The notes under the pieces were generated by a model. The model searched no databases, was not told the DNA's origin, and worked only from the letters and a program-made list of their open reading frames with translations. From positions 1 through 34,594 of the forward strand of contig JAPORH010000140.1 of the NCBI GenBank assembly GCA_026710325.1: a DNA stretch of 34,594 nt, read 5' to 3'. This document shows, one piece after another, positions 8,999-31,108 of the stretch; position 1 is the stretch's first letter; the number at the start of each line of letters is the position of its first letter. Made by a program: the position numbers and the translations under genes. This DNA comes from Litoreibacter sp. (GTDB lineage Bacteria; Pseudomonadota; Alphaproteobacteria; Rhodobacterales; Rhodobacteraceae).

Positions 8999-9289
8999 TG
9001 TCCCCTCGCTCGACCGTCAGAACCTGGTGCTTGCACGGCATGTGAGCATTAAACCTTCGCAAAAACAACAATTACGTGTTTCGGAGGGTAACTTTTGGAC
9101 ATTCGAAACAGATCACACACCGAACAACGCGGTGGCTCGCTTCGTTTGGAGCGTTTGGGGCGGTGCATGTGTTTGATACACCTTCGAAACAAGAAATAGG
9201 CACCGTCGACGCTGTACCCCGGGCCAGATCATGTTTATGCCCGATCAGTGGAACGCGTTTGGCTGGTTCGCGTGCAAGACGGGGGAGTA
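8999..9289. promoter_or_regulatory. divergent upstream region of NicX-like gene and liv operon
   Basis: These 291 bases must hold promoters for the minus-strand NicX-like gene and the plus-strand Liv transporter. The only repeated word I see is TTCGAAAC at 9102-9109 and 9183-9190 in the same orientation. I find no clear palindromic operator or convincing small gene. Confidence 0.4.
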
Positions 9290-10210
9290 ATGTCGGTAAT
9301 CCTGATCATTGAACAGGTGCTCAACGGCCTGCAATTCGGTGTGATGCTGTTTTTGATGGCCGCAGGGCTGACGCTGATCTTTGGCGTCATGGGGCTGATC
9401 AACCTTGCGCACGGATCGCTTTACATGGTCGGCGCGTTTGCGGCGGCATGGGTGGCCGGTTTGACCGGCTCGTTTGTTTTGGCGCTCGGCGCGGCGCTGG
9501 CGGCGGCGGCGGCGGCAGGCGCTTTGATTGAGATGCTTGTGATCCGAAGGCTCTACAAGGCCGCTCATTTGGATCAGGTTCTTGCAACCTTCGCGCTCAT
9601 CCTGATCTTTTCGGAGGGGACACGCTGGGTATTCGGCTCCTTCCCCCTGTTTTTAGATGTGCCCGCCTACTTATCCGGGCCGATCACTTTGCCGGGCGGG
9701 ATACAATACCCGTTCTACCGCCTTGTTCTGATCGGCATCGGCGTCGCCGTCGCCTTAGCCTTATGGTGGCTGACCGCGCGCACCCGTCTTGGCATCCAAA
9801 TTCGCGCAGGCGAAAATGATCGCGAAATGATTGCAGCCCTGGGCGTCGACATCTCAAGGCTCTACACCTTGGTGTTTGCACTTGGTGCGGCCTTGGCGGG
9901 CCTTGCAGGCGCGTTGGTGGGTGCGATCCAATCGGTACAGGTGGGGATGGGCGAGCCCGTTCTGATCCTTGCCTTCGTTGTCATCGTTATCGGCGGGATC
10001 GGCTCTATCCGAGGGGCGTTTATCGGCGCGCTTCTCGTCGGTTTGACCGACACGCTCGGCGGCATTTTCCTGCCTGAGCTGTTCAAATTGTTCATGGGAA
10101 CGGGCGCCGCCACGCAAACGGGCTCGGCGCTGGCCTCGATGGCTGTCTACATCTTGATGAGCATCGTATTGATCTGGCGGCCCGCAGGGCTGTTCGGGGG
10201 GCAATCGTGA
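9290..10210 (+). CDS. livH: branched-chain amino-acid type ABC transporter permease (LivH family)
   Basis: About 306 residues with eight or so hydrophobic segments and the LivH signatures 'AAGLTLIFGVMGLINLAHGS' near the N-terminus and 'GIQIRAGENDREMIAALGVD' in the cytoplasmic loop. I chose the methionine just after GGGGGAG rather than the upstream in-frame one at 9248. It is the first gene of a four-gene plus-strand operon (H, M, G, F) with overlapping reading frames. Members of this family import branched-chain amino acids but also amides, urea, and aromatic or other carboxylic acids. No binding protein gene precedes it. The ligand is therefore open. Confidence 0.9.
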   Translation: MSVILIIEQVLNGLQFGVMLFLMAAGLTLIFGVMGLINLAHGSLYMVGAFAAAWVAGLTGSFVLALGAALAAAAAAGALIEMLVIRRLYKAAHLDQVLATFALILIFSEGTRWVFGSFPLFLDVPAYLSGPITLPGGIQYPFYRLVLIGIGVAVALALWWLTARTRLGIQIRAGENDREMIAALGVDISRLYTLVFALGAALAGLAGALVGAIQSVQVGMGEPVLILAFVVIVIGGIGSIRGAFIGALLVGLTDTLGGIFLPELFKLFMGTGAATQTGSALASMAVYILMSIVLIWRPAGLFGGQS

Positions 10211-11190
10211 TCCCCGAACGCATTTTGAACCTGGTCGTGATTTTGGGCTTTATTGCTGTGCCAATATGGGCCGTTTTCGCGGACGAGATTTTTACGCTGA
10301 CCTTGGTCACCAAGGCCATGATCCTTGGTCTTGCTGCAGTTGGCCTCAACATCGCGCTTGGCATTGGCGGCATGGTGTCATTCGGGCATGCTGTGTTTTT
10401 CGGGATCGGTGGATATGCCATGGGGATCCTGGCGCACCATGCCCAGACCTTTACGCCGCTTTCCGTGGGGCCGATCACGATGGCGGGCACCAAATCCATG
10501 CCAGTGATTTGGATCACGGCCATGTTGGTCTCCGCCGCGGTTGCCTGGGTGATCGCACGGCTGAGCCTGCGTACAACAGGCGTCTACTTCATTATGATCA
10601 CCCTCGCCTTTGGGCAAATGTTCTACTATTTCACGATCTCCTGGGGCACCTATGGTGGGGAGGATGGACTGCCGATCTATGTGCGCAACAGCTTCCCTGG
10701 TCTCAACACGCTGGTGCCGCTTCAATATTTGATGCTCTGCGGTGCCGCATTGGGACTGGCGCTTTTACTTCAGTGGCGGTTGCGCGCCTCGCCTTTCGGG
10801 CTCGCGTTGAATGCTGCGCGCCAAAGCCCGGCGCGGGCGGAGACTGTGGGGCTCGATCCGATGCGTATCAAACTTTGGGCCTTTGTCATCTCCGGAACGA
10901 TCACCGGGTTGGCCGGCGCGCTCTTTGCCGATCTCAACCGCTTCGTCAGCCCGACCATGTTTAGCTGGCAGCTTTCCGGAGAGCTGATCATCTTGATTAT
11001 CATCGGCGGTGTGGGCCGGCTCTTTGGCCCGGTGATCGGTGCGGCTGTTTTTGTCACTCTAGAGCATTGGCTCGGCGGGCTCACGGATTTCTGGCATGTC
11101 TGGCTTGGGGTGATCCTGCTCTTCATCGTGCTCTTTGGGCGCGGCGGGATCATTGGATTTTTAACCGGGAAGGAAGGGCCGCATGTCTGA
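10207..11190 (+). CDS. livM: branched-chain amino-acid type ABC transporter permease (LivM family)
   Basis: A 327-residue multi-pass membrane protein with the LivM core motif 'LAAVGLNIALGIGGMVSFGH' and the cytoplasmic ATPase-contact loop 'SPFGLALNAARQSPARAETV'. It starts with GTG and overlaps the LivH stop by 4 bases (GTGA), so translation is coupled. It should pair with LivH as the second half of the membrane channel. Length and motifs are normal. The C-terminus overlaps the next gene by 8 bases. Confidence 0.9.
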   Translation: MIPERILNLVVILGFIAVPIWAVFADEIFTLTLVTKAMILGLAAVGLNIALGIGGMVSFGHAVFFGIGGYAMGILAHHAQTFTPLSVGPITMAGTKSMPVIWITAMLVSAAVAWVIARLSLRTTGVYFIMITLAFGQMFYYFTISWGTYGGEDGLPIYVRNSFPGLNTLVPLQYLMLCGAALGLALLLQWRLRASPFGLALNAARQSPARAETVGLDPMRIKLWAFVISGTITGLAGALFADLNRFVSPTMFSWQLSGELIILIIIGGVGRLFGPVIGAAVFVTLEHWLGGLTDFWHVWLGVILLFIVLFGRGGIIGFLTGKEGPHV

Positions 11191-11932
11191 GCCCGTTCTG
11201 GCCACCCATGAGTTGAAAAAATCTTTTGGCGCGCTGGTTGCCACTGACAACGTGTCCATCGACCTGCGCCCGGGCGAAATCCACGCCGTGATCGGGCCGA
11301 ATGGTGCGGGCAAGTCGACCCTGATTGGCCAAATTTGTGGCGCGCTCGCGCCTGATGCTGGCCGCGTTGAGATCATGGGCCGCGACGTTACGCGCTTTGA
11401 CACTGCAGCACGCGCACGGGAAGGGCTGGGACGTACCTTCCAGATCTCTGCCTTAGCGATGGAGGATACCGCGCTCGAGAACGTCCTACTTGGCGCGATC
11501 GGCCAAACGGGGCGGGCCAGGCGTTTTTGGTCGCCTGTTGCGCGGGACGCGGACCTGCAAACGTGCGCTATGGGAGCGTTGGAGCGGGTTGGCCTTGCTG
11601 AGAGCAAGGACACGCGCTGCGCGGACCTGTCTCATGGGCAGCGCCGCCAGTTGGAAGTCGCAGTCGCCCTGACGCTCTCCCCCAAGGCCTTTGTCATGGA
11701 TGAACCTATGGCCGGGCTCGGACTGGACGGGTCCAAAACCATGACGTCCTTTTTGGACGGGCTGCGGTCCGAGGCGCCGATCTTATTGGTCGAGCATGAT
11801 ATGGACGCAGTCTTCGCTCTTGCTGACAGGATCAGTGTGCTGGTCTATGGCCGTATCATCGCCAGCGGGACGGTTGACGATATCCGCGCGTCGAAAGAGG
11901 TACGAGACGCCTACCTGGGGGAAAGCGTATGA
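11183..11932 (+). CDS. livG: branched-chain amino-acid type ABC transporter ATP-binding protein (LivG family)
   Basis: A 249-residue ATPase with Walker A GPNGAGKST, signature LSHGQRRQLEVAVAL, Walker B FVMDEPMAGLG and switch His in LLVEHDMDAVF. The signature LSHGQ in place of LSGGQ is common in LivG proteins. The LivG-type insertion between Walker A and signature (GRTFQISALAMEDTALENVL) is present. It overlaps LivM by 8 bases and LivF by 4 bases. With LivF it should form the ATPase heterodimer of the transporter. Confidence 0.92.
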   Translation: MSEPVLATHELKKSFGALVATDNVSIDLRPGEIHAVIGPNGAGKSTLIGQICGALAPDAGRVEIMGRDVTRFDTAARAREGLGRTFQISALAMEDTALENVLLGAIGQTGRARRFWSPVARDADLQTCAMGALERVGLAESKDTRCADLSHGQRRQLEVAVALTLSPKAFVMDEPMAGLGLDGSKTMTSFLDGLRSEAPILLVEHDMDAVFALADRISVLVYGRIIASGTVDDIRASKEVRDAYLGESV

Positions 11933-12615
11933 GCTTGCTCGAGGTCGGCGGTCTGAAAGCCTCCTATGGCAGCGCGCAAGCACTGTTCGATGTCTCGCTC
12001 AGTATTAGTGAAGGCGAAGTTGTCGCACTGATGGGGCGCAACGGGATGGGCAAGACCACCACAGTGCGTGCGATCTGCCAGATGATTTCATCGCAAGGTG
12101 TTTTGCGCTTCGCAGGGCAAGATTTGCAACGTCTCCCCAGCCATCGGATCGCAAGGCTCGGGATCGGGTTAGTGCCAGAGGGACGGCGCTGTTTCGCTGG
12201 CTTGACTGTCCAAGAGAACCTGCTTTCTGCCGCGCGCCCGGGAGAGTGGACAACTCAGTCAGTCGGCGCGCTCTTCCCGCGCCTTGCGGAGCGTCGCGAT
12301 CAAAAGGCGGCCTCCCTTTCTGGGGGTGAGCAGCAGATGTTGGCCATTGGGCGCGCGCTGATGACGAACCCGCGGTTGCTCATTCTTGATGAGGCGACGG
12401 AAGGTCTCGCCCCGCTGGTCAGGCAAGAAATCTGGGCCGCCATCGCGCGCTTAAAGCGCGACACCGGGCTTTCGATCCTCGTCATAGACAAATCTCTCAA
12501 GGAGCTATCCGCCATTTCCGACCGGGCCGTGATCCTTGAACGGGGCTCGAGTGTTTGGGCGGGGGCAATTGAGGATTTGAGCCCCGAGGTAACCGACAGA
12601 TTTGTAGGCGTTTGA
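11929..12615 (+). CDS. livF: branched-chain amino-acid type ABC transporter ATP-binding protein (LivF family)
   Basis: A 228-residue ATPase with Walker A GRNGMGKTT, signature LSGGEQQMLAIGRAL and Walker B LLILDEATEGLAP, the last being a LivF hallmark. The switch position reads 'ILVIDKSLKELS', so the usual histidine of the H-loop is replaced by lysine (LVID-K), a variation also seen in some transporters of this type. It ends the operon. The convergent EEP-family gene ends 20 bases beyond, with no strong terminator between them. Confidence 0.91.
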   Translation: MSLLEVGGLKASYGSAQALFDVSLSISEGEVVALMGRNGMGKTTTVRAICQMISSQGVLRFAGQDLQRLPSHRIARLGIGLVPEGRRCFAGLTVQENLLSAARPGEWTTQSVGALFPRLAERRDQKAASLSGGEQQMLAIGRALMTNPRLLILDEATEGLAPLVRQEIWAAIARLKRDTGLSILVIDKSLKELSAISDRAVILERGSSVWAGAIEDLSPEVTDRFVGV

Positions 12616-12634: not shown

Positions 12635-13777
12635 TTAAGCCCCGACGCCCGTGATATCGAACTCAATCACCAAGGGGCAGTGGTCACTCGCTTTAGGTCG
12701 GTCCCATCCGATCCGCGGATAGCGTTTGATCCCGTCCGAGTTTGGAACGCGGTAAGGCATGCCGGATCGGATAATCTCTGGCGCACCTGACTGCATCGCG
12801 GCCAGTGCCGGCGAGGCGATGATGTAATCAAGCTGAGATTTGGTACGCCCCGCGGAGAAGTAATGCGTCCAACGGCTGTCTGCAGGAAGCTGGTCGACCA
12901 AATTCACGCCAAACCCGTCACCCAATAGCGGGTCAAGGCCCGAGTCGCCCGTAACAGGCTCAAATGTCTCTACAAAGGAGCCGTCATCGTTCAACCGCTT
13001 ACCAACTTTGATCTGCCCGGTGTAGTCGTTCAGGTCGCCCACTATGGCCCAAAGCGGATTGGCAACGCCTTCGAACTTGCGCGTTATGATCTCCCGCACC
13101 GCAATCCCTTCAAGCTGCCGTGTGCCTATGCTGGCTGTCCGACCGCCACCCATGGATTTGAAGTGGCAATTGAAGATCGACACGGTTTGATCAATGCTCC
13201 CACGCGCGTTTTTGATATGGGTTTCAATCTCAAGGCAATCGCGCCGGAAGATACGGCCTCTTCGGTCTTTGCGCGCCTGTTCCGCCCGCGGAAAATCCTC
13301 AAGGAGCTGCTTGCCACTATCGGTCTCCCGCACGAATGCGCCAGTTACAGCACGGTGGCTTCGGGTCATGATTGGGCGAATGTCGCGGGCAATAACGGCC
13401 ACATCGATACCGCGGAAATCATTCCCTTCATGCAAAACGAATTGATCATACTGATCGACACCAATCTTTTTGACGTAGCTGTCAAAAAAGCGCTCCATCG
13501 CCCCAATGCTGTCGATTTCCTGTAGACAATAAATATCGGCATCCGCTGCAGCCATGGCTAGGGCCGTGTGCTGCCGACGGTCATCATCTTGCGAAATCGC
13601 GGCGACCTCCACCTGGCGTTTGAAATCTTCGAACTTTGTAAAGTCGCCATCTCCGAATTGCCCGTAGAACTGGACAATCTCTGGCAGATACCGCGCATCC
13701 CGATGATTGGTGAACGCCCCGAAATCATGGCGGGTGAACAGGTTTTCTACGTTGAATGTGCAAATGCGCAATCTCAT
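12635..13777 (-). CDS. endonuclease/exonuclease/phosphatase (EEP) superfamily protein
   Basis: About 380 residues. The EEP fold is marked by FNVENLF at the N-terminus (metal/active-site Asn), CLQEID (catalytic Glu), VGDLNDY (Asp and Asn), and LDYIIAS plus SDHCPLVIEF at the C-terminus (Asp-His pair). This catalytic set is complete, so it should be an active Mg-dependent phosphodiesterase or phosphatase. The substrate may be nucleic acid or a phosphoester and cannot be decided. No signal peptide is seen. The start at MRLRICTFN is favoured by a GAGGGG ribosome site seven bases upstream, although the frame is open further. It is a single-gene unit between liv and bhc operons with no evident link to either. 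Confidence 0.85.
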   Translation of the reverse strand: MRLRICTFNVENLFTRHDFGAFTNHRDARYLPEIVQFYGQFGDGDFTKFEDFKRQVEVAAISQDDDRRQHTALAMAAADADIYCLQEIDSIGAMERFFDSYVKKIGVDQYDQFVLHEGNDFRGIDVAVIARDIRPIMTRSHRAVTGAFVRETDSGKQLLEDFPRAEQARKDRRGRIFRRDCLEIETHIKNARGSIDQTVSIFNCHFKSMGGGRTASIGTRQLEGIAVREIITRKFEGVANPLWAIVGDLNDYTGQIKVGKRLNDDGSFVETFEPVTGDSGLDPLLGDGFGVNLVDQLPADSRWTHYFSAGRTKSQLDYIIASPALAAMQSGAPEIIRSGMPYRVPNSDGIKRYPRIGWDRPKASDHCPLVIEFDITGVGA

Positions 13778-13888
13778 GGCCAAGCCCCTCGTCATTAAAT
13801 GGGGCCAGCCTAGGCGAGTATCTGGTTTGCGCAAGCGATTTGACCGGGCGCGCGAAGCAGCCCGGCCTTTGGTGTTTCTTATAGTCCG

Positions 13889-14884
13889 TCAGATTGGGAC
13901 CATGCTCGCCTGGCCTGACGCCACCGCAACCTCGACAATGGAGGCGGCGACTGCGAGATCTTGAAGCCCTACACCGGTGCCATCGAACAGTGTGATCTCG
14001 TCTTCAGAGCTGCGCCCGGCGTGGGTTCCGTTGATAACGCTGCCCAGCTGCGGAATATCACCCTCGGCCAGAATACCTTCCTTAATCGCGTGCTGCGCCT
14101 CCCCGATGGAAATCGATTGCGCGACCTCGTCGGCAAAAACAGTGGCCTTAGAAATCAGATCGGTCCCAACCTCTTGTTTGCCAATCGTGTCAGTGCCCAT
14201 GCAGGCAATATGCGTGCCGGGGCTCACATGCTCACCTAGCAGCGTCGGAGCAAAAGAGGAGGTGATCGTGATGATTGCGTCAGCCTCAACCATACCAGGG
14301 AGCTCTACAGCTTCGAACTGAACGCCCATCTCTTCTGCCACAGCAGCAAGACCTGGCAACATTTCTGGATGGTAATTCCAGCCAATCACCTTCTCAAACG
14401 GATGGGTCTCAAGTGCTGCGCGCAGCTGGAACTTGGCCTGGTGGCCTGCACCAATCATGCCCAGCACTTTCGCGTCTTTTCGCGCCAGATGGCGTAAGGA
14501 CACCGAAGAGGCCGCCGCCGTGCGCAGCGCCGTCAACAGATTGCCGCCGACCATCGCCGTCACCCGCCCACTGTCGGGATCGAACAAGAAAACGGTGGAT
14601 TGATGGTTGATCAGCCCGCGCCGCGCCAGGTTATGGGGCCAGTAGCCGCCCGCTTTGAGGCCCAGCACCCCGCCCGCGCGATCGAACCCGCCTTTGAAGC
14701 CGTATAGCGCGTCCTCGTGACCGATGGCTTCCCGAACGACCGGGAAGTTGTAAGCGTCACCTGCAGCCATGGCTGCGAAGACTTTCTCGACCGCGTCAAA
14801 GGCTGCTTCGCGGGTCAGCATGTCAGCGATCATACCCTCGGGGACAATCGCAAGCTGGTGTTGTGTCATCTGCGTACCGTCCAT
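13889..14884 (-). CDS. bhcD: iminosuccinate reductase of the beta-hydroxyaspartate cycle
   Basis: A 331-residue member of the ornithine cyclodeaminase/mu-crystallin family with the Rossmann motif GMIGAGHQA at about residues 143-150. By family alone it would be called ornithine cyclodeaminase. Its position as the last gene of a complete bhcABCD operon identifies it as BhcD, which reduces iminosuccinate to L-aspartate with NADH and so regenerates the amino donor for BhcA. The start is set by TGATG: its ATG shares one base with the bhcC stop. Further in-frame codons upstream belong to bhcC territory and are not used. Confidence in the assignment rests on the order and identity of all four enzymes plus the regulator. 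Confidence 0.92.
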   Translation of the reverse strand: MDGTQMTQHQLAIVPEGMIADMLTREAAFDAVEKVFAAMAAGDAYNFPVVREAIGHEDALYGFKGGFDRAGGVLGLKAGGYWPHNLARRGLINHQSTVFLFDPDSGRVTAMVGGNLLTALRTAAASSVSLRHLARKDAKVLGMIGAGHQAKFQLRAALETHPFEKVIGWNYHPEMLPGLAAVAEEMGVQFEAVELPGMVEADAIITITSSFAPTLLGEHVSPGTHIACMGTDTIGKQEVGTDLISKATVFADEVAQSISIGEAQHAIKEGILAEGDIPQLGSVINGTHAGRSSEDEITLFDGTGVGLQDLAVAASIVEVAVASGQASMVPI

Positions 14885-16047
14885 CAGTAAGCCTTCCCGC
14901 GCGCAGAAACCGGCCAAAGCGTTTCGACCTTGCCGCCGCGCACTCCGACATACCAATCATGGACGTTGCAGGTCGGGTCGCAGTGACCAGGGACCAGCTT
15001 GAACTTGTCGTTGACCTTCAAAACGCCATCCGGGTCAGCAACCACACCATGCTCGTCAGAACATTTGACATATTCCACGTCCGTGCGGCCAAAAATCACC
15101 GGCAGCCCACTGTCAATGGATTGGGCCTTTAGCCCAGCATCCACAATAGCCTTGTCGGCTTTGGCGTGGCTCATGACGGAGGTCAGGATGAAGAGCGCGT
15201 TTTCCCACTCCCCCTGGTCAATCCGTTTGCCATCCTTGTCCAAAATACGACCGTAGTCGGCATCCATGAAGGCATAGGACCCGCATTGCAGCTCATTGTA
15301 CACGCCCGAGTTGCTCTCGAAATAGTAGGAGCCGGTACCGCCGCCGCCGACGATGTCGCAGTCCAGCCCTTCTGCTTTCAGCGTGTCAACTGCGTCTTTC
15401 ACCTGAGCCACCGCGATGGCAATCTTGGCCTTGCGATCCTCATAGCTGTCCATGTGCTGCATCGCGCCCTGATAGGCTTGGATGCCAGCGAATTTCAGGC
15501 CCGGCGCCGCGTCAATGGCTTTTGCAATCTCTACCACTGCCCGGGTTGTCGTCACGCCGCACCGCCCCGCGCCGCAGTCAATCTCGACCAAGCATTCGAT
15601 TTCGGTGCCATGCTTTGTCGCGCCTGCCGACAGATCGGCGACATTGGCAACGTCATCCACGCAACAAATAGTGCGCGCGCCCAGCTTTGGCATGCGCGCC
15701 AACCGATCTATCTTGGCCGGGTCGCGGACCTGGTTGGAGACCAGCACGTCCTTGATGCCGCCGCGTGCGAACACCTCGGCCTCGGAGACCTTTTGGCAGC
15801 ACACGCCGCAGGCGCCACCAAGCTCAACTTGCAGCAAAGCGACGTCAACGGATTTGTGCATTTTGCCATGCACCCGGTGACGCATGCCATGAGCCTTGGC
15901 ATAGTCGCCCATCTTCTTGATGTTGCGCTCCAGCGCGTCGAGATCGAGCACAAGGCATGGGGTCTGGATCTCCGCCTCATTCATGCCGGGCAATGCAGGC
16001 ACGTCGTAGCCAACTTCCAGATCGCTATATTGGGTCATATCTTTCAT
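14884..16047 (-). CDS. bhcC: beta-hydroxyaspartate aldolase
   Basis: A 387-residue fold-type III PLP enzyme of the D-threonine aldolase/3-hydroxy-D-aspartate aldolase family. The PLP lysine is Lys62 in the HGKMHKS motif (family H-x-K-x-H-K). The metal-binding His-x-Asp pair is His355-Cys-Asp357 near the C-terminus. In the cycle it joins glycine and glyoxylate to (2R,3S)-beta-hydroxyaspartate. An AAGGA ribosome site lies nine bases before the ATG and the gene is 15 bases after bhcB. Taken alone it could be a D-threonine aldolase, but the neighbours make BhcC by far the better call. Confidence 0.93.
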   Translation of the reverse strand: MKDMTQYSDLEVGYDVPALPGMNEAEIQTPCLVLDLDALERNIKKMGDYAKAHGMRHRVHGKMHKSVDVALLQVELGGACGVCCQKVSEAEVFARGGIKDVLVSNQVRDPAKIDRLARMPKLGARTICCVDDVANVADLSAGATKHGTEIECLVEIDCGAGRCGVTTTRAVVEIAKAIDAAPGLKFAGIQAYQGAMQHMDSYEDRKAKIAIAVAQVKDAVDTLKAEGLDCDIVGGGGTGSYYFESNSGVYNELQCGSYAFMDADYGRILDKDGKRIDQGEWENALFILTSVMSHAKADKAIVDAGLKAQSIDSGLPVIFGRTDVEYVKCSDEHGVVADPDGVLKVNDKFKLVPGHCDPTCNVHDWYVGVRGGKVETLWPVSARGKAY

Positions 16048-16062
16048 GTCAGAAATCCTTGC

Positions 16063-17028
16063 TCAAACTGTCCAGGGAAGGCGGTCAAGATCGACATTGC
16101 CGCCGGTGATGATGACGCCGACGCGCTTGCCGGCGAAATATTCAGGGTTCTTCAAGATGCAGGCCAAAGGCACCGCGCAGGAGGCCTCCATGACGATCCG
16201 CAGATGCTTCCAGGTGATCTTCATTGCGTCGATGATCTCCTCCTCGGACGCAGTAAAAATCTCGGTCACATGGTTGGAGACGAAATGCCAGGTCCGCTCT
16301 TTCAGGGGCACAAGCAGCCCATCTGCAATGGTCTTTGGCGCATCATCGGCGATGATGTAGCCCGCCTTGAAACTGCGATAGGCGTCATCTGCCTGCTCTG
16401 GCTCGGCTGCAATGATTTGCACTTCAGGCGCTAGGGTAGACAGGGTCAAACAAGTCCCAGAGATCATGCCACCGCCGCCGATCGGTGCAACCATCATGTC
16501 GAGCCCGTCAGTTTGCTCCATGAATTCCTTCGAGCAAGTCCCCTGCCCCGCGATCACGCGCGGGTCATTGTAAGGGTGTACGAAATCGCCACCCGTGGCC
16601 GCCTGCACATTGGCAAACGTCGCTTCGCGCGACGTCGTGGAGGGCTCGCATTCAGTGATGACACCACCGTAGCGGCGCACAGTGTCCTTCTTCGCCTGTG
16701 GTGCAGTGCGAGGCATAACGACGTTGCACGGAATACCACGGCGCATCGCAGCGTAGCTGAGGCAGGAAGCATGATTGCCTGAGGAATGCGTTGCAACGCC
16801 AAGCTTGGCTTGCTCATCATCGAGGCCAAATACCGCGTTCGTTGCACCGCGCACTTTGAACGCTCCGGGCTCTTGAAAGTTCTCGCATTTGAAAAACAGC
16901 TGCGCGCCGGTGAGTTCATTCAGGTGGGCCGAAGTGCGCACCGGTGTGCGATTGATATGCGGCTTGATGCGCTCATGCGCTTCGAGCATGTCGTCATAGG
17001 TTGGGATATCGGTGATCATGTCCTTCAT
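16063..17028 (-). CDS. bhcB: erythro-beta-hydroxyaspartate dehydratase
   Basis: A 321-residue fold-type II PLP enzyme of the serine/threonine dehydratase family. The PLP lysine is Lys58 in EPGAFKVRG, the substrate loop is SSGNH at 82-86, and the phosphate-binding glycine loop is GGGG at 184-187. BhcB removes water from beta-hydroxyaspartate to give iminosuccinate, which is passed to BhcD before it hydrolyses to oxaloacetate and ammonia. The ATG shares one base with the bhcA stop (TAATG). It was probably annotated historically as threonine ammonia-lyase. No regulatory ACT domain is present, which fits a catabolic enzyme. Confidence 0.93.
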   Translation of the reverse strand: MKDMITDIPTYDDMLEAHERIKPHINRTPVRTSAHLNELTGAQLFFKCENFQEPGAFKVRGATNAVFGLDDEQAKLGVATHSSGNHASCLSYAAMRRGIPCNVVMPRTAPQAKKDTVRRYGGVITECEPSTTSREATFANVQAATGGDFVHPYNDPRVIAGQGTCSKEFMEQTDGLDMMVAPIGGGGMISGTCLTLSTLAPEVQIIAAEPEQADDAYRSFKAGYIIADDAPKTIADGLLVPLKERTWHFVSNHVTEIFTASEEEIIDAMKITWKHLRIVMEASCAVPLACILKNPEYFAGKRVGVIITGGNVDLDRLPWTV

Positions 17029-18218
17029 TACGCGGCCTCCGACAGGGTTGTTGAGTTTCCTTGGCGATAAATTTCTTGCGCGGCCGCAACACCGGAGCCG
17101 AGTGTAATGTCGAGCCCGAGATCGGCCATAACCATCTCCGCCGTGGCGATACCGCTCAGCGTCATTACATCTGTAAGACTGCCCAGATGTCCAATGCGGA
17201 AGACCTTTCCGGCGACATCGCCGAGCCCCGCGCCGAAGGCCACTCCATAGGCGCTATCCGCGTGGGAGACGATGCGACCCGCATCAAACCCAGCCGGCGT
17301 CATGATTGCCGTCACCGTGTCAGAATAGAGCTCCGGACGGGTCGCGCAGACCTCCATCCCCCAGGCTGCGACCGCCGCGCGAACGCCCTTGGCGATGCGG
17401 GTGTGGCGGGCAAATACCTGATCAAGCCCTTCTTCCATGAGCATGTCGCAGGCCTCTTTCAAACCGTTCAACATGCCCACGGACGGCGTGTAGGGATAGC
17501 CGCCAGACGCATAGCTCGCAGCCATATCCTGAATGTTAAAATACCCGCGCGGCAAGCCGCCCTGTTCGGTCGCCTTCATCGCCTTGGGCGAGAAGGCGGC
17601 GATGCCAAGACCCGCAGGCAACATAAAGCCTTTTTGAGAGCCTGTGACCGCTACATCCACCCCCCAAAGATCAAAGTGGAAATCCATCGACCCGATTGAA
17701 CTGACGCCATCAACAAAGAGCAATGCAGGATGGTCTGCGCTTTCAAGCGCCAACCGAACGGCGCTCACGTCCGACTTCACACCTGTTGCGGTCTCGTTGT
17801 GCGTCACCAGTACGGCTTTGATCTTGTTTTCTTTGTCAGCAGCCAGCTGCTCGGCCGCCCAATCTGTCGCAAAGCCCTCGCCCCAAGTCACGTCCTTCGA
17901 GATGACGTTGAGCCCGAAGTCGCGGCACATTTTGATCCACTTCTGGCTGAACATCCCGTTGCGCACGGCCAAGACGGTGTCGCCCGGGTTAAGTGTATTG
18001 GCGATTGCCGTCTCCCAGCCGCCCGTCCCGGTTGAGGGAAAAATAAACACTTCGGCCACACGCGACTTAAGCACGGCCTGCACACCGCTGCGCGCCGCAT
18101 TGAGCAGGCCAGGAAAGCTTGCCGAACGGTGATCCATAGTTGGCAGGTCGCAGGCACGCCGCAACGCTTCTGGCATATTGGTCGGTCCCGGAATGAACAC
18201 TGGGTTTTGCAAGCTCAT
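17028..18218 (-). CDS. bhcA: L-aspartate:glyoxylate aminotransferase
   Basis: A 396-residue class V (fold type I) aminotransferase that resembles serine-glyoxylate aminotransferase. The N-terminus 'NPVFIPGPTNMPE' and the PLP lysine Lys196 in TGSQKGFMLP are typical of that group. In the beta-hydroxyaspartate cycle it makes glycine from glyoxylate with aspartate as donor, releasing oxaloacetate as the net product. The start at MSLQNP follows a GGGAGA site and the frame upstream to 18275 is not needed. It is the first gene of bhcABCD and faces bhcR across an A+T-rich control region. Confidence 0.93.
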   Translation of the reverse strand: MSLQNPVFIPGPTNMPEALRRACDLPTMDHRSASFPGLLNAARSGVQAVLKSRVAEVFIFPSTGTGGWETAIANTLNPGDTVLAVRNGMFSQKWIKMCRDFGLNVISKDVTWGEGFATDWAAEQLAADKENKIKAVLVTHNETATGVKSDVSAVRLALESADHPALLFVDGVSSIGSMDFHFDLWGVDVAVTGSQKGFMLPAGLGIAAFSPKAMKATEQGGLPRGYFNIQDMAASYASGGYPYTPSVGMLNGLKEACDMLMEEGLDQVFARHTRIAKGVRAAVAAWGMEVCATRPELYSDTVTAIMTPAGFDAGRIVSHADSAYGVAFGAGLGDVAGKVFRIGHLGSLTDVMTLSGIATAEMVMADLGLDITLGSGVAAAQEIYRQGNSTTLSEAA

Positions 18219-18390
18219 AGTCTCATCTCCCTTTTCGATGTGATGGGTATACGCAGCCTGGCCACTAGGTCGCAATTTTTTTGAAATCTTTTTTCACAAA
18301 TGGAAACTCAGGGTAAAATTATTTATTTACATAGCGTTATATTTTTTCATATTGTAAAATTGTTTTTCATTTATAAAGATGAGAGAAAAA
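18219..18390. promoter_or_regulatory. A+T-rich divergent promoter region of bhcA and bhcR
   Basis: About 170 bases separate the two start codons. From about 18275 on the sequence is strikingly A+T-rich compared with the flanking genes. TTTTTCAT occurs at 18343-18350 and again at 18363-18370, exactly 20 bases (about two helical turns) apart, and a related TTTTTTCAC is at 18289-18297. An imperfect dyad TTACA...TGTAA spans about 18327-18357. These are candidate binding sites for BhcR, which in Paracoccus controls the bhc operon in response to glyoxylate. Which element is the operator is not established. Confidence 0.6.
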
Positions 18391-19209
18391 ATGAGTGAGC
18401 TTACACCCCGTCGCAGCCGGGGGCGGCCCAAGGCCTGGGACAGCAAAACCGAGCAGAACACCATTAAATCGCTTGATCGCGCAATGGAGGTGCTGGAGCA
18501 CCTCTCGACGCTGGCTGGGGCCACTCTGTCAGAGCTTGCGGGCGACCTCGATCAATCGCCAGCAACGGTCTACCGCGTTTTGGTGACGCTCGAAGGTCGC
18601 GGCTTGGTGGAATTCGACGCAGAAACGCAGCTTTGGCATGTCGGCGCACAGGCTTTTGTCGTGGGCGCGCGCTATCTTCGGCGTACCTCGCTTGTGGACA
18701 GGGCGACGCCCATTTTGCGCGCGTTAATGGGCGAGACTGGCGAGACGGCAAATCTTGCCGTCCCCAAGGACGGCACCGTTGTCTTTGTTAGCCAAGCGGA
18801 ATGCCACCATTCGATCCGCGCGTTTTTCCCACCCGGGTCCGCCTCGCCGATGCATGCCTCTGGGATAGGCAAAGCGCTCCTGTCCGAGATGCCGACAGCG
18901 ATGCTCGAACGCGTCATCACCTCTGGTGCGCTGGAGCGCTTCACCGAATACACGATGGACGACCCCGACACTCTTGTCGCTGAGCTGGAACGCACGCGCG
19001 CACGCGGCTTTGCCATAGACGACCAAGAGAAGAATATCGGGATGCGCTGCATCGCCTCGCCCGTGTTCAACTGGACAGGTGACGCTGTCGCGGGCATTTC
19101 GATATCGGGCCCGCTCGCGCGGATCGGGGACGGCGAGATACCGGGCCTCGCCGCATCAGTTATGAAAGCCGCGCGTGAATTGTCGGAGGCGCTAGGGGCA
19201 GAGCGCTAG
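18391..19209 (+). CDS. bhcR: IclR family regulator of the beta-hydroxyaspartate cycle
   Basis: A 272-residue IclR-type regulator with an N-terminal winged helix-turn-helix (about residues 25-85, with SELAGDLDQSPATVYRVLVT) and a C-terminal effector-binding domain (about 95-265, containing 'SPMHASGIGKALLSE' and 'GFAIDDQEKNIGMRCIASPV'). These two segments are the usual IclR ligand-pocket motifs. BhcR homologues bind the bhc promoter region and sense glyoxylate. The start at MSELTP is preceded by GAGAGA; an in-frame ATG at 18379 is the alternative. It is divergent from bhcA, the arrangement described for the Paracoccus cluster. Confidence 0.9.
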   Translation: MSELTPRRSRGRPKAWDSKTEQNTIKSLDRAMEVLEHLSTLAGATLSELAGDLDQSPATVYRVLVTLEGRGLVEFDAETQLWHVGAQAFVVGARYLRRTSLVDRATPILRALMGETGETANLAVPKDGTVVFVSQAECHHSIRAFFPPGSASPMHASGIGKALLSEMPTAMLERVITSGALERFTEYTMDDPDTLVAELERTRARGFAIDDQEKNIGMRCIASPVFNWTGDAVAGISISGPLARIGDGEIPGLAASVMKAARELSEALGAER

Positions 19210-19236: not shown

Positions 19237-20679
19237 CTAGTCGCCATAGGCCACGGAAGGAAGCCACGTGGTCAGCGCCGGGAACTCGAAGACGATGAAG
19301 AGCCCGACGAGCTGCAAAATCACAAACGGGATAACGCCCTTGTAGATATGTGAAAGCGACACGCCAGGCGGGCAGACCCCTTTGAGATAGAAGAGCGCAA
19401 ACCCCACGGGCGGGGTCAGGAAGGATGTCTGCAACGTCACCGCCACAAGGATCGCGAACCAAACGACAGAGGGATCGCGCACCTGGTCGAAGCCCGGAAT
19501 GGCAAGATCGAGTGCCAGAATGATCGGCAGCATCAGCGGCATAATGATGATTGTGATCTCGATCCAGTCGAGCAGGAAGCCCAACAGGAACACGATGAAC
19601 AAAATAATGGCCACGGTGAGGTAAGGGTCCTCAAAAGCCGACAACACCAGATTCTGGACGATCTCATCCCCGCCATAGCGGCGCAGCACGAGCGCGAAGA
19701 AGTTTGCCGCGAGGAAGATACCCACAATGTAGCCAGCCGTATTGAGCGTCGAACGGCTCACGTCACGCAATACGCCGAAGCTCAGCTTTCCATTGGCCAA
19801 GGCCAGCAGGGTCGCCCCCATTGCGCCAAGGCCCGAGGCCTCTGTTGGTGTCGCATAACCTGCAAAGATCGACCCCAGCACGAGAAGGATCAGAAGCATC
19901 GGCGGCACGACGGCTAGCAACACCTCTTTCACCTCCGCCCAACCGACCGCTTCTGTTCGCTCAGGTGCAGGCATGGCAGATGGGTTGATGATGCCGTAGA
20001 TCACGATGAAAATGATGTAGAGGGCACCCAGCAGCAACCCCGGGAACAGCGCCCCCATGAACAAATCACCCAGAGAGATCGCAAGCTGGTCGGACATAAT
20101 CACCAGCATGATCGAGGGTGGGATCAGGATGCCCAAGGTCCCCGCGCTGGCGATTGTGCCTGTGGCAATGGGTTTCGAATAGTCCTGCTTCATCATTGCA
20201 GGCAGCGCCATCACGCCAAGAAGTGTCACTGAGGCCCCGATCACGCCAGTGGAGGCTGCCAGGATGATCCCGATCAGCAGCACGGTCAGCGACAGCCCGC
20301 CGCGCAAGCCCCCGAAGAGCTTTTGCATTGCATGCATCATGCGCTGCGCGACGCCGGACTGATCCAGCATAAGCCCCATGAAAATGAACATTGGCAACGC
20401 CACCAGCACCGGGTTTTGGACGATATTGCCAAACAACCGGGCAGAGAGTGCCTGCAGTCGTTGATAGTTTATCCCTGTGCGATCAAATTCGATAATGTCT
20501 CGCAGCTGCCCGCGGAAAGGGTCGAGGAAAAACTCGGCGATCAACACAAAGACAAGGCTGATCCCCACCAGTGCCATCGCAACCGGGATGCCGCGAAAGA
20601 GCATCCAGATAAAGCCAAGGAACATCGCCAGCACGGCGAATTCATTCAATGTCAGAAACTGACCGATAAAGCTCAACAT
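19237..20679 (-). CDS. dctM: TRAP transporter large permease (DctM family)
   Basis: A 480-residue membrane protein with about twelve to thirteen hydrophobic segments. It belongs to the DctM/SiaM large-subunit family, shown by 'PVLVALPMFIFMGLMLDQSG', 'GTLGILIPPSIMLVIMSDQL', 'GYATPTEASGLGAMGATLLA' and 'LTPPVGFALFYLKGV'. It imports an organic acid with a sodium gradient together with the small subunit and the periplasmic binding protein. A GGGGG ribosome site precedes the ATG and the gene is 11 bases after dctQ. Its 3' end converges on bhcR with a 27-base gap. Confidence 0.92.
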   Translation of the reverse strand: MLSFIGQFLTLNEFAVLAMFLGFIWMLFRGIPVAMALVGISLVFVLIAEFFLDPFRGQLRDIIEFDRTGINYQRLQALSARLFGNIVQNPVLVALPMFIFMGLMLDQSGVAQRMMHAMQKLFGGLRGGLSLTVLLIGIILAASTGVIGASVTLLGVMALPAMMKQDYSKPIATGTIASAGTLGILIPPSIMLVIMSDQLAISLGDLFMGALFPGLLLGALYIIFIVIYGIINPSAMPAPERTEAVGWAEVKEVLLAVVPPMLLILLVLGSIFAGYATPTEASGLGAMGATLLALANGKLSFGVLRDVSRSTLNTAGYIVGIFLAANFFALVLRRYGGDEIVQNLVLSAFEDPYLTVAIILFIVFLLGFLLDWIEITIIIMPLMLPIILALDLAIPGFDQVRDPSVVWFAILVAVTLQTSFLTPPVGFALFYLKGVCPPGVSLSHIYKGVIPFVILQLVGLFIVFEFPALTTWLPSVAYGD

Positions 20680-20690
20680 GGCTCAGCCCC

Positions 20691-21503
20691 CTATGCGCTT
20701 CGGCGGCCAAGCAGCCGGGCGGCACCGATCAGCACAAAAGTTGCGACAAGCGTGATGACGATGGTGTATTTGATTTCCCAATTGCCGAGGTCGAATTCGT
20801 CGAAGATCGGATGCCGACCGATTGCTCGGGTCTGGGTATCAGGTGGGCTGGTGAGGTAAATCGCCCACCAAATCACGTAAAACACGGCGAGGTTGACCAA
20901 GAACATGGTCGTCGGGAATGCATAGAGCAGCTTTCGCCAAAGAACGGGTTCGGTGAGTTGTGACAAGGCGCGCACATAGGCCGACCAAGCGGCAACCCCG
21001 ATGAGCAGGAAGCTCACATTCATCATGACCTTCAGGATCCAAAGGTTATGCAAACCGTTGGGGCTGCTGGAGCCTTCATCTGAGACCACAGACGCAATGG
21101 CGTAATGAATGGTGACGTCCCAGCATAGAATAATGAATGGCAGAAACAGCCAACCTAAAGCGATTGCGTCATAGACGCGTTTCTTGCGTTCAGGAAAGCC
21201 GTCATAAAAGATGTCGACGCGCACATGGCTGTTGGTCGTGACCGCATAAGCAATGCCGATCAACACGGCTGATCCGTACATCCACCATTGCAAATCGTCC
21301 ATCCACGCTTGGTTCCCAGGGCCGATGCCAGAACGTCCGAGTGTCCGCAGAACAACCTGCGTACAGATGACCAGCATAAGGAGCGGAAAGACCCACGCGA
21401 AAATGTTGGAGACAAAAACTGTAAACCGGTCGCCTTTATTGTGCTGATCTTTGCCAACCTCGCCCGGGTCCGTGACCGCTGCGACCATCTCTTCAGATTG
21501 CAT
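20691..21503 (-). CDS. dctQ: TRAP transporter small permease (DctQ family)
   Basis: A 270-residue protein with about four to five hydrophobic segments and a DctQ core (WMDDLQWWMYGSAVLIGIAY, then NSHVRVDIFYDGFPERKKR). It is longer than the usual 160-200 residues. The extra length is an N-terminal hydrophilic tail of about 25 residues and a C-terminal loop plus last membrane segment. The longer form is found with the mannitol/chloroaromatic and 2-oxo-acid TRAP subgroup. GGGAGG precedes the ATG. Two hairpins lie between this gene and dctP. Confidence 0.88.
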   Translation of the reverse strand: MQSEEMVAAVTDPGEVGKDQHNKGDRFTVFVSNIFAWVFPLLMLVICTQVVLRTLGRSGIGPGNQAWMDDLQWWMYGSAVLIGIAYAVTTNSHVRVDIFYDGFPERKKRVYDAIALGWLFLPFIILCWDVTIHYAIASVVSDEGSSSPNGLHNLWILKVMMNVSFLLIGVAAWSAYVRALSQLTEPVLWRKLLYAFPTTMFLVNLAVFYVIWWAIYLTSPPDTQTRAIGRHPIFDEFDLGNWEIKYTIVITLVATFVLIGAARLLGRRSA

Positions 21504-21540
21504 CTGCGCCTCCCAAAATTTCCCAATCGCATCTGCGATG

Positions 21541-21597
21541 TCTGACGCGCCCTCAACACGTCAGATGGACCGAGGCGACAAACGGATCGCCTCGGTC
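21541..21597 (-). promoter_or_regulatory. tandem intercistronic hairpins between dctP and dctQ
   Basis: Two adjacent perfect inverted repeats lie in the 119-base gap. GACCGAGGCGA (21568-21578) pairs with TCGCCTCGGTC (21587-21597) around an 8-base loop. TCTGACG (21541-21547) pairs with CGTCAGA (21559-21565) around an 11-base loop. Neither is followed by a T-run on the minus strand, so full termination is unlikely. They more probably protect the dctP message from 3' decay or attenuate read-through, giving more binding protein than permease. Confidence 0.65.
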
Positions 21598-21622
21598 ATT
21601 CTCTATGTCTTGATCAATGTGA

Positions 21623-22672
21623 TCAGTTGCGCGGACGCGGCAGATAGATGTTCTCGTTCCAGACTTTGTAGCCAGCGCGGAACTCTTGCAGATCATCCCA
21701 GACTTCTTTGAAGTAAGCGTCTTCGGCGGCTAGTTCGGCGGCAACCTCGTTCCAGGCGGACTCAAACGTGTCGAGCATTTCAGGCGACCACTGTTTGATG
21801 GTCACACCGTTGTTCTCGACATTGTCTTGCATCGCATCGAAATTGGTGGCCTCACCCTCAGCATAGTTGTCAGTGATGTTGGCCATGCAGGCGATCTCGA
21901 TCTGATTTTGCGAGATTTCGTCCAGGTCGTCCCAACGATCTTTGTTGATCAGCAGTTCGAACATGGTGGCGGGCTGGTGCCAGCCTGGGAAGTAGTTGAA
22001 CTTCGCAATGTTGTGGAAACCAAGACGCGCATCGATACGCGGCATCGAGAATTCGGTCGCGTCGATCGCGCCGCGCTCCAGGGCCGGGAAGATGTCGCCA
22101 CCTGCGAGCAGGGAGGTCGATACACCCAGACGCTGCATAACTTCCGCGCCGAGACCGAAGAAGCGCATGTTCAGACCTTCAAGGTCAGCCACGCCGTTGA
22201 TCTCGTTCTTGAACCAGCCAGAGGTTTCAGGCGCGATGATGCCACACGGGATCACGTGCACGTTGTAGCCGTTGTCGTCATACATGCGCTGGAACAGCGC
22301 GGCGCCGTCGTCATAGAGCATCCATGCCAGGAACTCGCCAGCTTCTGGGCCAAAAGGCACGGCAGCGAAGAGCGAAGCGGCGGGGATTTTACCCTGCCAA
22401 TAACCAGCAGTCGTGTAAGCCGCGTCGACCGAGCCATTTGAGACGGCGTCAAGCGCTTCAAGCGCCGGAACCAGTTCACCCGGGTCGAAATGCTCAAACT
22501 CGACATCGTTGGAGATTGAGTTCAGTTTCTCGGTGAAGCCCACGGCGGCGGTGCCAAGGATTGGCAGGTTCTTACCGAAGGCCGAAGTCATCTCGAATGT
22601 TTCCTGAGCGTTGGCCGTTGTCGCCATACCGAGCCTGAGTGCCGCCACGGCTGTCATTGTGCGAATAGTCAT
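21623..22672 (-). CDS. dctP: TRAP transporter periplasmic solute-binding protein (DctP/TakP-like)
   Basis: A 349-residue protein with an N-terminal signal peptide ending ATTANAQ. The signal core contains an arginine (VAALRLGMA), which is unusual for a hydrophobic segment. The mature part has DctP-family features, including an 'LEGLNMRFFGLGAEVMQRLG' stretch with the arginine that usually binds the ligand carboxylate and a 'DATEFSMPRIDARLGFHNIA' region typical of the 2-oxo-acid binding TakP and mannitol/chloroaromatic subgroup. GGGAGG supports the start; the frame extends upstream to 22747. The ligand is probably a short carboxylic acid. Because the operon adjoins the bhc cluster, glycolate, glyoxylate or a 2-oxo acid is a reasonable guess. 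Confidence 0.88.
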   Translation of the reverse strand: MTIRTMTAVAALRLGMATTANAQETFEMTSAFGKNLPILGTAAVGFTEKLNSISNDVEFEHFDPGELVPALEALDAVSNGSVDAAYTTAGYWQGKIPAASLFAAVPFGPEAGEFLAWMLYDDGAALFQRMYDDNGYNVHVIPCGIIAPETSGWFKNEINGVADLEGLNMRFFGLGAEVMQRLGVSTSLLAGGDIFPALERGAIDATEFSMPRIDARLGFHNIAKFNYFPGWHQPATMFELLINKDRWDDLDEISQNQIEIACMANITDNYAEGEATNFDAMQDNVENNGVTIKQWSPEMLDTFESAWNEVAAELAAEDAYFKEVWDDLQEFRAGYKVWNENIYLPRPRN

Positions 22673-23178
22673 ATGGTTCCTCCCGAAAGTTACTAATCGT
22701 GCATGCCAGATCTGGTAAAAATTTCTTACCAATTGGTGGGATAACACTTCGCAGATTTAATTGGAATACCCAATAGTGAGGAGAATTCAGGGCCTGCCCT
22801 GCTGTCTCCGCCCATCCGGGACTGCCGATCGCACTGAGCGCCGAAAGCCCCGTCTCGTTTCTGCTAAGCCCCCCAAAACCTCCATCAGACCCTTGCGTGC
22901 CAGTAGCTAGCACACTGAGACGATTTGTCGCTAGCTATTGGAAGAAATTAGTATCACCGAATGATGGTTGGAAATGGACTGCGACATACTGATGGGGCTA
23001 AGTATCTGTTTATTCTCGTGAAATTAAATTGCCGCCGCACTGCCTTTCCGAAAAATCTCTTGGAAAAATTCTGCTAATGCACTGCTTCCAGTGACGGGCA
23101 GTGGCGAGCCGACAACAGAATAGAAGAATGGGAGCAAAGGGTTTCGGCGGGCCAAGTCCAGGCCCGCCATTCACTCGA
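22673..23178. other. intergenic region upstream of dctP and downstream of the molybdenum hydroxylase
   Basis: About 500 bases without a convincing gene. The part near 22673-22900 should contain the dctP promoter. The middle (about 22920-23090) is A+T-richer than the flanks. I see no ORF with a ribosome site and no family match. The right end holds the hairpin listed separately. Confidence 0.4.
23146..23168 (-). terminator. hairpin after the molybdenum hydroxylase operon
   Basis: GGCGGGCC (23146-23153) pairs perfectly with GGCCCGCC (23161-23168) around a 7-base loop, 11 bases beyond the stop codon at 23179. Read on the minus strand only a broken pyrimidine tract follows, so it is a weak intrinsic terminator or a 3' protector. 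Confidence 0.55.
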
Positions 23179-25341: not shown

Positions 25342-25344
25342 CGC

Positions 25345-25809
25345 TTAAGCCTCCAGAATTTCGGATGCGCGCTCAATAGCCGCGCGGATACGTTGATAGG
25401 TGGCGCAGCGGCAGGCATTGCCGTTCATGTAGTCGTGAACGTCATCGACCGAGGGCTTTGGATTTTCCGCCAGCAACCCAACAGCAGACATGATCTGTCC
25501 GGATTGGCAGTAGCCGCATTGCACCACATCAAGCTCCACCCAAGCCTGTTGAACTGCGGCGCCCACTTTGATGTCTTCCATGGCCTCAATCGTCGTGACC
25601 TCTGCACCCTCGACGTCCTCGATGTAGGTCTGGCAGGAGCGCGACGGCACACCATCGACATGCACCGTGCACGCGCCGCAAGAGGCCACGCCGCACCCAA
25701 ATTTCGTGCCCGTTAGTTTCAATTCGTCACGGATCACCCATAAAAGGGGCGTGCCCGGTTCTGCGCTTACCGTCGTCTCTCGTCCATTTAATTTTAATGA
25801 AATAGCCAT
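25345..25809 (-). CDS. molybdenum hydroxylase [2Fe-2S] subunit (isoquinoline 1-oxidoreductase alpha-type)
   Basis: A 154-residue two-cluster ferredoxin-like subunit. The N-terminal plant-type cluster uses Cys39, Cys44 and Cys47 in FGCGVASCGAC plus a fourth Cys near residue 59. The C-terminal helical cluster uses CGYCQSGQ and ACRCATYQRIR. It passes electrons from the molybdenum site of the large subunit to an outside acceptor. It has no signal peptide, so it probably travels out with the Tat-tagged large subunit. It is the first gene of the two-gene operon, with an operator-like palindrome 31 bases upstream. Confidence 0.92.
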   Translation of the reverse strand: MAISLKLNGRETTVSAEPGTPLLWVIRDELKLTGTKFGCGVASCGACTVHVDGVPSRSCQTYIEDVEGAEVTTIEAMEDIKVGAAVQQAWVELDVVQCGYCQSGQIMSAVGLLAENPKPSVDDVHDYMNGNACRCATYQRIRAAIERASEILEA

Positions 25810-27723: not shown

Positions 27724-27788
27724 CATGAACCTCCCATGTTCATCTCGGCTCCTCCGACCGTGTTCCAGCCGGTTCTTACAGAGCTCAT
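27723..27788 (-). CDS. possible 21-codon leader ORF upstream of the LivK-type binding protein
   Basis: A 21-residue frame (MSSVRTGWNTVGGAEMNMGGS) begins after a near-perfect ribosome site, AGGAGGG, six to seven bases from its ATG. It ends in TGA whose last base is the first base of the binding-protein ATG at 27723. The TGATG join is the classic form for translation by termination and re-initiation. The peptide has no run of one amino acid that would suggest classical attenuation. Length alone makes chance possible. Ribosome profiling or a start-codon mutation with a reporter would test it. Confidence 0.35.
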   Translation of the reverse strand: MSSVRTGWNTVGGAEMNMGGS

Positions 27789-31101: not shown

Positions 31102-31108
31102 GTCACCC

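Follow-up and report, generated by a model that had tools for sequence, protein, structure and literature searches.

The window analysed here, a stretch of 34,594 nucleotides from Litoreibacter sp. (GenBank assembly GCA_026710325.1, contig JAPORH010000140.1, positions 1 to 34,594), almost certainly carries a complete operon for the beta-hydroxyaspartate cycle (BHAC) under its own regulator, as judged from family assignment and gene arrangement. At positions 13889–19209, where the open frames were checked, the genes bhcA, bhcB, bhcC and bhcD follow one another, tightly packed, on the minus strand, and bhcR is divergent from them:

17028–18218, minus strand: bhcA, predicted L-aspartate--glyoxylate aminotransferase, 396 aa when started at the ATG of 18218
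16063–17028, minus strand: bhcB, predicted beta-hydroxyaspartate dehydratase, 321 aa
14884–16047, minus strand: bhcC, predicted 3-hydroxy-D-aspartate aldolase, 387 aa
13889–14884, minus strand: bhcD, predicted iminosuccinate reductase, 331 aa when read from the ATG that overlaps the bhcC stop
18379–19209, plus strand: bhcR, IclR-type regulator, divergent from bhcA

For bhcA and bhcD we chose ATG codons as the starts; the list of open reading frames has longer frames beginning with TTG. At the bhcA/bhcB junction (TAATG) and the bhcC/bhcD junction (TGATG) the stop and start codons have one base in common, and bhcB and bhcC are separated by 15 nt; such tight junctions most naturally suggest a single transcript and coupled translation.

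Identity of the five proteins

The initial annotation, made from the letters and their open frames, had described four overlapping or closely spaced genes for a class V aminotransferase, a threonine-dehydratase-like enzyme, a D-threonine-aldolase-like enzyme and an ornithine-cyclodeaminase-like reductase, with a divergent IclR gene. The open frames agree with this description, as do the domain matches (class V aminotransferase in BhcA; PALP fold in BhcB; Ala_racemase_N and D-ser_dehydrat in BhcC; OCD/mu-crystallin in BhcD; IclR in BhcR). Families were assigned with the NCBIfam equivalog models and their curated cut-offs, together with sequence matches in the PDB and a comparison with Paracoccus denitrificans HAMBI_2443, a strain other than that of the published work. 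The best family of each of the five proteins was its Bhc equivalog, with a score above the curated cut-off: NF045640 for BhcA (675 bits, cut-off 650), NF045641 for BhcB (578 bits, cut-off 550), NF045642 for BhcC (765 bits, cut-off 690), NF045643 for BhcD (561 bits, cut-off 500) and NF045644 for BhcR (385 bits, cut-off 350), which bears out the earlier claim of a complete bhcABCD set with bhcR. Chance is excluded by the NCBIfam E-values of 1e-115 to 1e-230 across the five proteins and by the recurrence of the same gene order in relatives.

The set and order had also been likened to those of P. denitrificans, and HAMBI_2443 does have the same five genes in the same order and divergence, with identities of 68% for BhcA (over 385 residues), 86% for BhcB, 80% for BhcC, 65% for BhcD (322 residues) and 52% for BhcR (241 residues). 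In the PDB, BhcC matched the D-3-hydroxyaspartate aldolase 6qkb (E=4e-213, residues 4–387) far ahead of the next entries, and BhcD matched the iminosuccinate reductase 6rqa (E=6e-128), the runner-up being alanine dehydrogenase (1e-39); both structures we take to be of P. denitrificans origin. The matches for the other two enzymes speak against the assignment: none of the 35 PDB matches for BhcA is a BHAC-named entry and the best is a serine-glyoxylate aminotransferase, and for BhcB no BHAC-named entry occurs among the best 60 of 110, with serine racemases at the top.

That the four enzymes are instead ordinary amino-acid enzymes (serine-glyoxylate aminotransferase, threonine/hydroxyaspartate deaminase, D-threonine aldolase and ornithine cyclodeaminase) standing together by accident is extremely improbable and is refuted at the level of family assignment: every one of the four sits in a superfamily with such members and the rival models give significant E-values for BhcA, BhcB and BhcD, but these models fall far under their own cut-offs whereas the Bhc models are all over theirs (for BhcB, among the best 25 of 36 matches), and the fixed order with a divergent bhcR recurs in relatives. 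Among individual candidates, we rejected alanine dehydrogenase (178 bits, cut-off 409) and cyclodeaminase (ornithine cyclodeaminase; 163 bits, cut-off 408) for BhcD; threo-3-hydroxy-L-aspartate ammonia-lyase (336 bits, cut-off 452) and, at lower scores still, threonine ammonia-lyase (threonine deaminase) for BhcB; and true D-threonine aldolase for BhcC, on the NCBIfam scores. The comparison with BhcA–D and BhcR that had been suggested as a check thus gave matches for all five proteins and left ornithine cyclodeaminase and threonine deaminase far below their cut-offs. The accompanying warning that automatic names would mislead holds only in part, as Bhc names are used by NCBIfam and in most records listed, and a few still read 'threonine dehydratase' or alike.

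Following the known reaction steps of the Bhc enzymes, and by orthology to the characterised proteins, BhcA would transaminate glyoxylate with aspartate as the amino donor, yielding glycine and oxaloacetate; BhcC would join the glycine to a second glyoxylate to form beta-hydroxyaspartate; BhcB would remove water from this to give iminosuccinate; and BhcD would reduce iminosuccinate, regenerating the aspartate used by BhcA. The predicted net result is the conversion of two molecules of glyoxylate to one of oxaloacetate with loss of neither CO2 nor ammonia. The expectation that carbon is assimilated without loss of CO2 consequently stands for the cycle as far as oxaloacetate and does not extend to phosphoenolpyruvate or pyruvate, the formation of which from oxaloacetate releases CO2. 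In the accessible part of PMC11323563, glyoxylate assimilation by the cycle is termed carbon-neutral.

Distribution of bhc clusters in relatives

Two samples were used, one of 198 genomes of the family and one of 80 loci from named genomes, the latter being the closest of 592 by BhcC and therefore over-representing close relatives. BhcC scored above its cut-off in 84 of the 198 genomes and gave any match (E<=0.001) in 132; the only other genome of the same genus in the sample had a trace BhcC match (E=4e-5). All five bhc genes were found in 63 of the 80 loci, and bhcR and bhcA were divergent in 65 of them, with 150–233 nt between the matched ends. The nearest locus by the five proteins taken jointly was that of Tateyamaria omphalii, at 83% identity for BhcA, 90% for BhcB, 91% for BhcC, 85% for BhcD and 81% for BhcR. 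Megablast with the region matched 41 plasmid records, including 16 from Leisingera and 9 from Paracoccus, and none of the 41 covers 80% of the region at one place. Within this group the bhc system is common and patchily distributed, and the present cluster, from a marine bacterium of Roseobacter type, is one more member of a pathway already known; a further Rhodobacterales-type genome with a carbon-saving glycolate route helps annotation and is unsurprising.

Some of the loci depart from the usual arrangement. In Rhodovulum adriaticum (L072, 7955–12300), bhcB, bhcC, bhcD and a BhcR match are present and BhcA was not detected (tblastn, E<=1e-10); bhcA may have been lost, moved or diverged there. 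Seven loci (L008, L010, L011, L025, L027 from Marivita, L043 and L044) have bhcABCD with no BhcR match in the 2.4–7.8 kb upstream of bhcA (tblastn, E<=1e-10), and another regulator may serve these clusters. A further seven loci without BhcR have a contig end near or within bhcA/bhcB.

A candidate BhcR operator

According to the accessible part of PMC11323563, BhcR of P. denitrificans is a glyoxylate-responsive activator of bhc, and a possible palindrome for BhcR binding was noted ahead of the bhcA -35 region, with its sequence given in Fig. 1b of that paper. Eight of the nine ligand-site residues in Table 1 of the same source agree in the BhcR of the window, position 143 (our alignment numbering) being Ser and not Thr. 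BhcR of the window would likewise sense glyoxylate and most likely activate bhcA from the first of the following elements:

18282–18296, no strand assigned: probable BhcR operator TGAAA-N5-TTTCA, an exact palindrome about 60 nt upstream of bhcA and just upstream of its promoter
18355–18369, no strand assigned: second, weaker candidate site with one mismatch, adjoining bhcR
18247–18275, minus strand: putative promoter-like TTGCGA-17-GTATAC for bhcA, identified by eye

Conservation was followed across 66 bhcR–bhcA intergenic regions, one from the window and the others from 65 of the 80 loci; of the 66, 44 contain at least one exact TGAAA-N5-TTTCA and 15 contain two or more. When the best site of each region was taken from the zone 40–130 nt ahead of the first bhcA codon matched, 34 regions had no mismatch, 19 had one, 7 had two, 5 had three and 1 had four, and the bhcA-proximal palindrome is accordingly exact or one mismatch away in 53 of the 66. 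Mononucleotide shuffles of the intergenic regions (1,320 in all) yielded no exact site and 10 with one mismatch, a contrast that overstates the conservation of the palindrome because related sequences have common ancestry. The count of bhcR-proximal sites was left unused, as in short intergenic regions it may overlap the bhcA-proximal count. Bases around the palindrome vary, yet AAAAAATTG directly after it is kept though not selected for; since the arms served to choose the sites entering the column frequencies, independent evidence comes only from conserved bases lying outside them.

Two results weigh against this assignment: the exact palindrome is absent from 22 of the 66 intergenic regions, and in P. 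denitrificans no site of this spacing comes within two mismatches, though TTTCAGAAAAATTGC occupies the same place. The place of the site, rather than its occurrence, is what counts, as two matches at one-mismatch looseness in the whole window were also obtained in 38 of 100 shuffles. Genome-wide, the exact palindrome occurs at four places, which by our arithmetic is about the chance expectation for ten fixed bases in 4.2 Mb, and the bhc site alone was therefore used; the extended pattern, allowing up to three mismatches, found the bhc site and one three-mismatch match across the genome, the reversed control giving one match. A palindrome at a fixed distance from bhcA fits the remark published for P. 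denitrificans (PMC11323563, accessible part), and a site on each side, one by bhcA and one by bhcR, fits the dual role of BhcR proposed there. The palindrome at 18282–18296 is thus the probable BhcR operator, a role suggested by its position and its recurrence, and a candidate operator conserved in many relatives would allow the BhcR regulon to be traced in genomes.

The TRAP transporter beside bhcR

Genes for a tripartite ATP-independent periplasmic (TRAP) transporter (19237–22747) are convergent with bhcR:

19237–20679, minus strand: dctM, TRAP transporter
20691–21503, minus strand: dctQ, TRAP transporter
21623–22747, minus strand: dctP, TRAP binding protein, TakP-like

These genes set the window apart from its closest counterparts, for no TRAP gene match was found within 12,957 bases around the bhc cluster of P. 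denitrificans HAMBI_2443, and TRAP genes were not detected across 21 kb at the T. omphalii locus (E<=1e-10). We consider it somewhat probable that the transporter is unrelated to the cycle and imports lactate, pyruvate or some other 2-oxo or 2-hydroxy acid that serves other purposes. A glycolate/glyoxylate importer, set beside the BHAC operon in several lineages so that uptake and assimilation form one module, is a tentative reading which we regard as rather doubtful.

The best PDB match of the window DctP is the 2-oxo acid binding protein TakP (2hzk/2hzl; E=4e-61), the pyruvate- and cation-site residues of which include Tyr100, Gln156, Glu214 and Glu240 (PMC1839085, accessible part). In our alignment numbering, Tyr100 and Glu214 are kept in the window protein, and Gln156 is replaced by Glu, Glu240 by Gln and Trp215 by Phe, so that its ligand need not be pyruvate. 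A change of ligand would fit the exchanged Glu/Gln pair. The sister clade stands in apparent lactate operons, and the two-carbon counterpart of lactate is glycolate.

A DctP at least 70% identical to that of the window, a limit set after the list was seen, occurs in 23 of the 198 family genomes, this one included. BhcC above its cut-off is commoner alongside this DctP (18 of 23 genomes against 66 of the 175 others; Fisher P=2e-4, uncorrected for ancestry), which argues for a link with the cycle. Adjacency points the same way in a few genomes: TRAP genes stand within about 10 kb of bhc in three of the 23, namely this genome, G063 (L143) and G095 (L152), and in the last of these dctP follows bhcD on the same strand. 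At least two adjacencies among 17 others would have a chance of 0.005 under a binomial with uniform placement, again uncorrected for ancestry. Against a role in BHAC stand the five of 23 genomes that have this DctP without an above-cut-off BhcC, and the 15 of 18 genomes with both the transporter and BhcC that show no adjacency. Most close relatives of this DctP lie away from bhc, as far as the contigs reach; adjacency was not seen in the fetched stretches of 20 other genomes, several of them ended by contig ends, and may be missed because several of the 22 stretches end in this way. Regulation likewise favours an unrelated transporter, as no exact or one-mismatch operator is present near the TRAP genes in the window; upstream of dctP, the closest likeness to the operator differs from it at two positions here and at three in L143 and L152.

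A paralogous clade, whose binding proteins are 58–59% identical to the window DctP, lies in apparent lactate operons, which also supports import for other uses: in seven of seven stretches, one of them in this genome, it is accompanied by genes for a GntR regulator and for a membrane D-lactate dehydrogenase, and in four of seven by one for an FMN L-lactate-type (2-hydroxyacid) dehydrogenase. The GntR and D-lactate dehydrogenase genes found beside this clade are not beside the window copy, and its lactate genes were not found as recurrent neighbours of the window clade, a point against assigning the window transporter to the same use. Among the TRAP neighbours in 29 stretches, four clusters present in 24–29 stretches are the TRAP genes or overlapping frames; of five further clusters, each in 5–8 stretches, two are real (GntR and D-lactate dehydrogenase) and limited to the seven paralogous-clade stretches, and the remaining three resemble overlapping frames.

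The same genome holds a member of the paralogous clade on contig C99 (L158), where a 59% identical copy belongs to a probable lactate operon that also has genes for GntR, an FMN dehydrogenase and D-lactate dehydrogenase. A Rhodobiaceae metagenome-assembled genome (L079) has both an FMN dehydrogenase gene and a TRAP transporter at 60% identity downstream of bhcD. Our literature search, with subscription papers mostly outside its scope, found no experiment on a glycolate TRAP transporter linked to BHAC and, in the sections covered, no BhcR operator sequence. A candidate transporter for C2 acids beside the operon is a testable lead.

Source of glyoxylate

Glycolate is a major product released by algae, and the glyoxylate entering the cycle would most likely derive from it through the GlcDEF oxidase of the genome, which is assembled in 240 contigs and is 99.75% complete. 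On contig C176, glcD, glcE and glcF are three adjacent frames of 477, 370 and 438 aa, and GlcE (292 bits, cut-off 284) and GlcF (468 bits, cut-off 333) are both above their cut-offs. The organism would be predicted to grow on glycolate. Glyoxylate carboligase (Gcl) gave no match above its cut-off in the genome, the best reaching 323 of 711 bits, and the CO2-releasing glycerate route is therefore probably absent. The genome also encodes malate synthase G (1045 bits, cut-off 989).

The operon may instead serve mainly glyoxylate that arises otherwise than from algal glycolate, for instance from ethylene glycol or the breakdown of purines or sarcosine; we think this unlikely, though the cycle would take glyoxylate of any origin. 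GlcD is the weak member of the proposed oxidase and tells against the glycolate route, its best families being GlcD models that it matches below their cut-offs (531 of 897 bits and 458 of 568 bits). The 410 nt upstream of glcD also lack the palindrome at up to two mismatches, so that glcDEF is probably outside the control of the same operator. The glcD–glcE–glcF order with E and F above their cut-offs nevertheless favours glycolate, as does the behaviour of Ruegeria pomeroyi, a marine member of the Rhodobacterales with a bhcB-annotated megaplasmid, which grows with glycolate as sole carbon source according to the accessible part of PMC10041152 and for which the part of PMC9038784 available gives diel expression ratios of 18.6–21.6 for glcDEF in co-culture with a diatom.

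A second BHAC in the genome was considered and rejected, BhcC having a single match and the second-best BhcA-like protein (contig C35) reaching about 448–449 bits against the cut-off of 650. The gene for this below-cut-off aminotransferase, for which BhcA is the best family, is divergent on C35 (L096, 2378–6412) from that for a 931-aa fused FAD oxidase/Fe-S protein, and the two perhaps belong to a separate glyoxylate or hydroxyacid route. The locus is flanked by frames reading as membrane proteins.

Other genes in the window

Directly downstream of bhcD, 12635–13834 encodes an endonuclease/exonuclease/phosphatase-like protein with weak family matches only. Urea/branched-chain-type ABC transporter genes occupy 9248–12615, with a separate binding protein at 26593–27726, none of them reaching the urea or branched-chain cut-offs listed. 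Upstream of the TRAP genes and on the same strand, 23179–25809 holds the large and small subunits of a molybdenum hydroxylase, which score below the NCBIfam cut-offs listed. Finally, at 29881–32206 a DUF2201 metallopeptidase/VWA-like gene adjoins a MoxR-like AAA ATPase gene.

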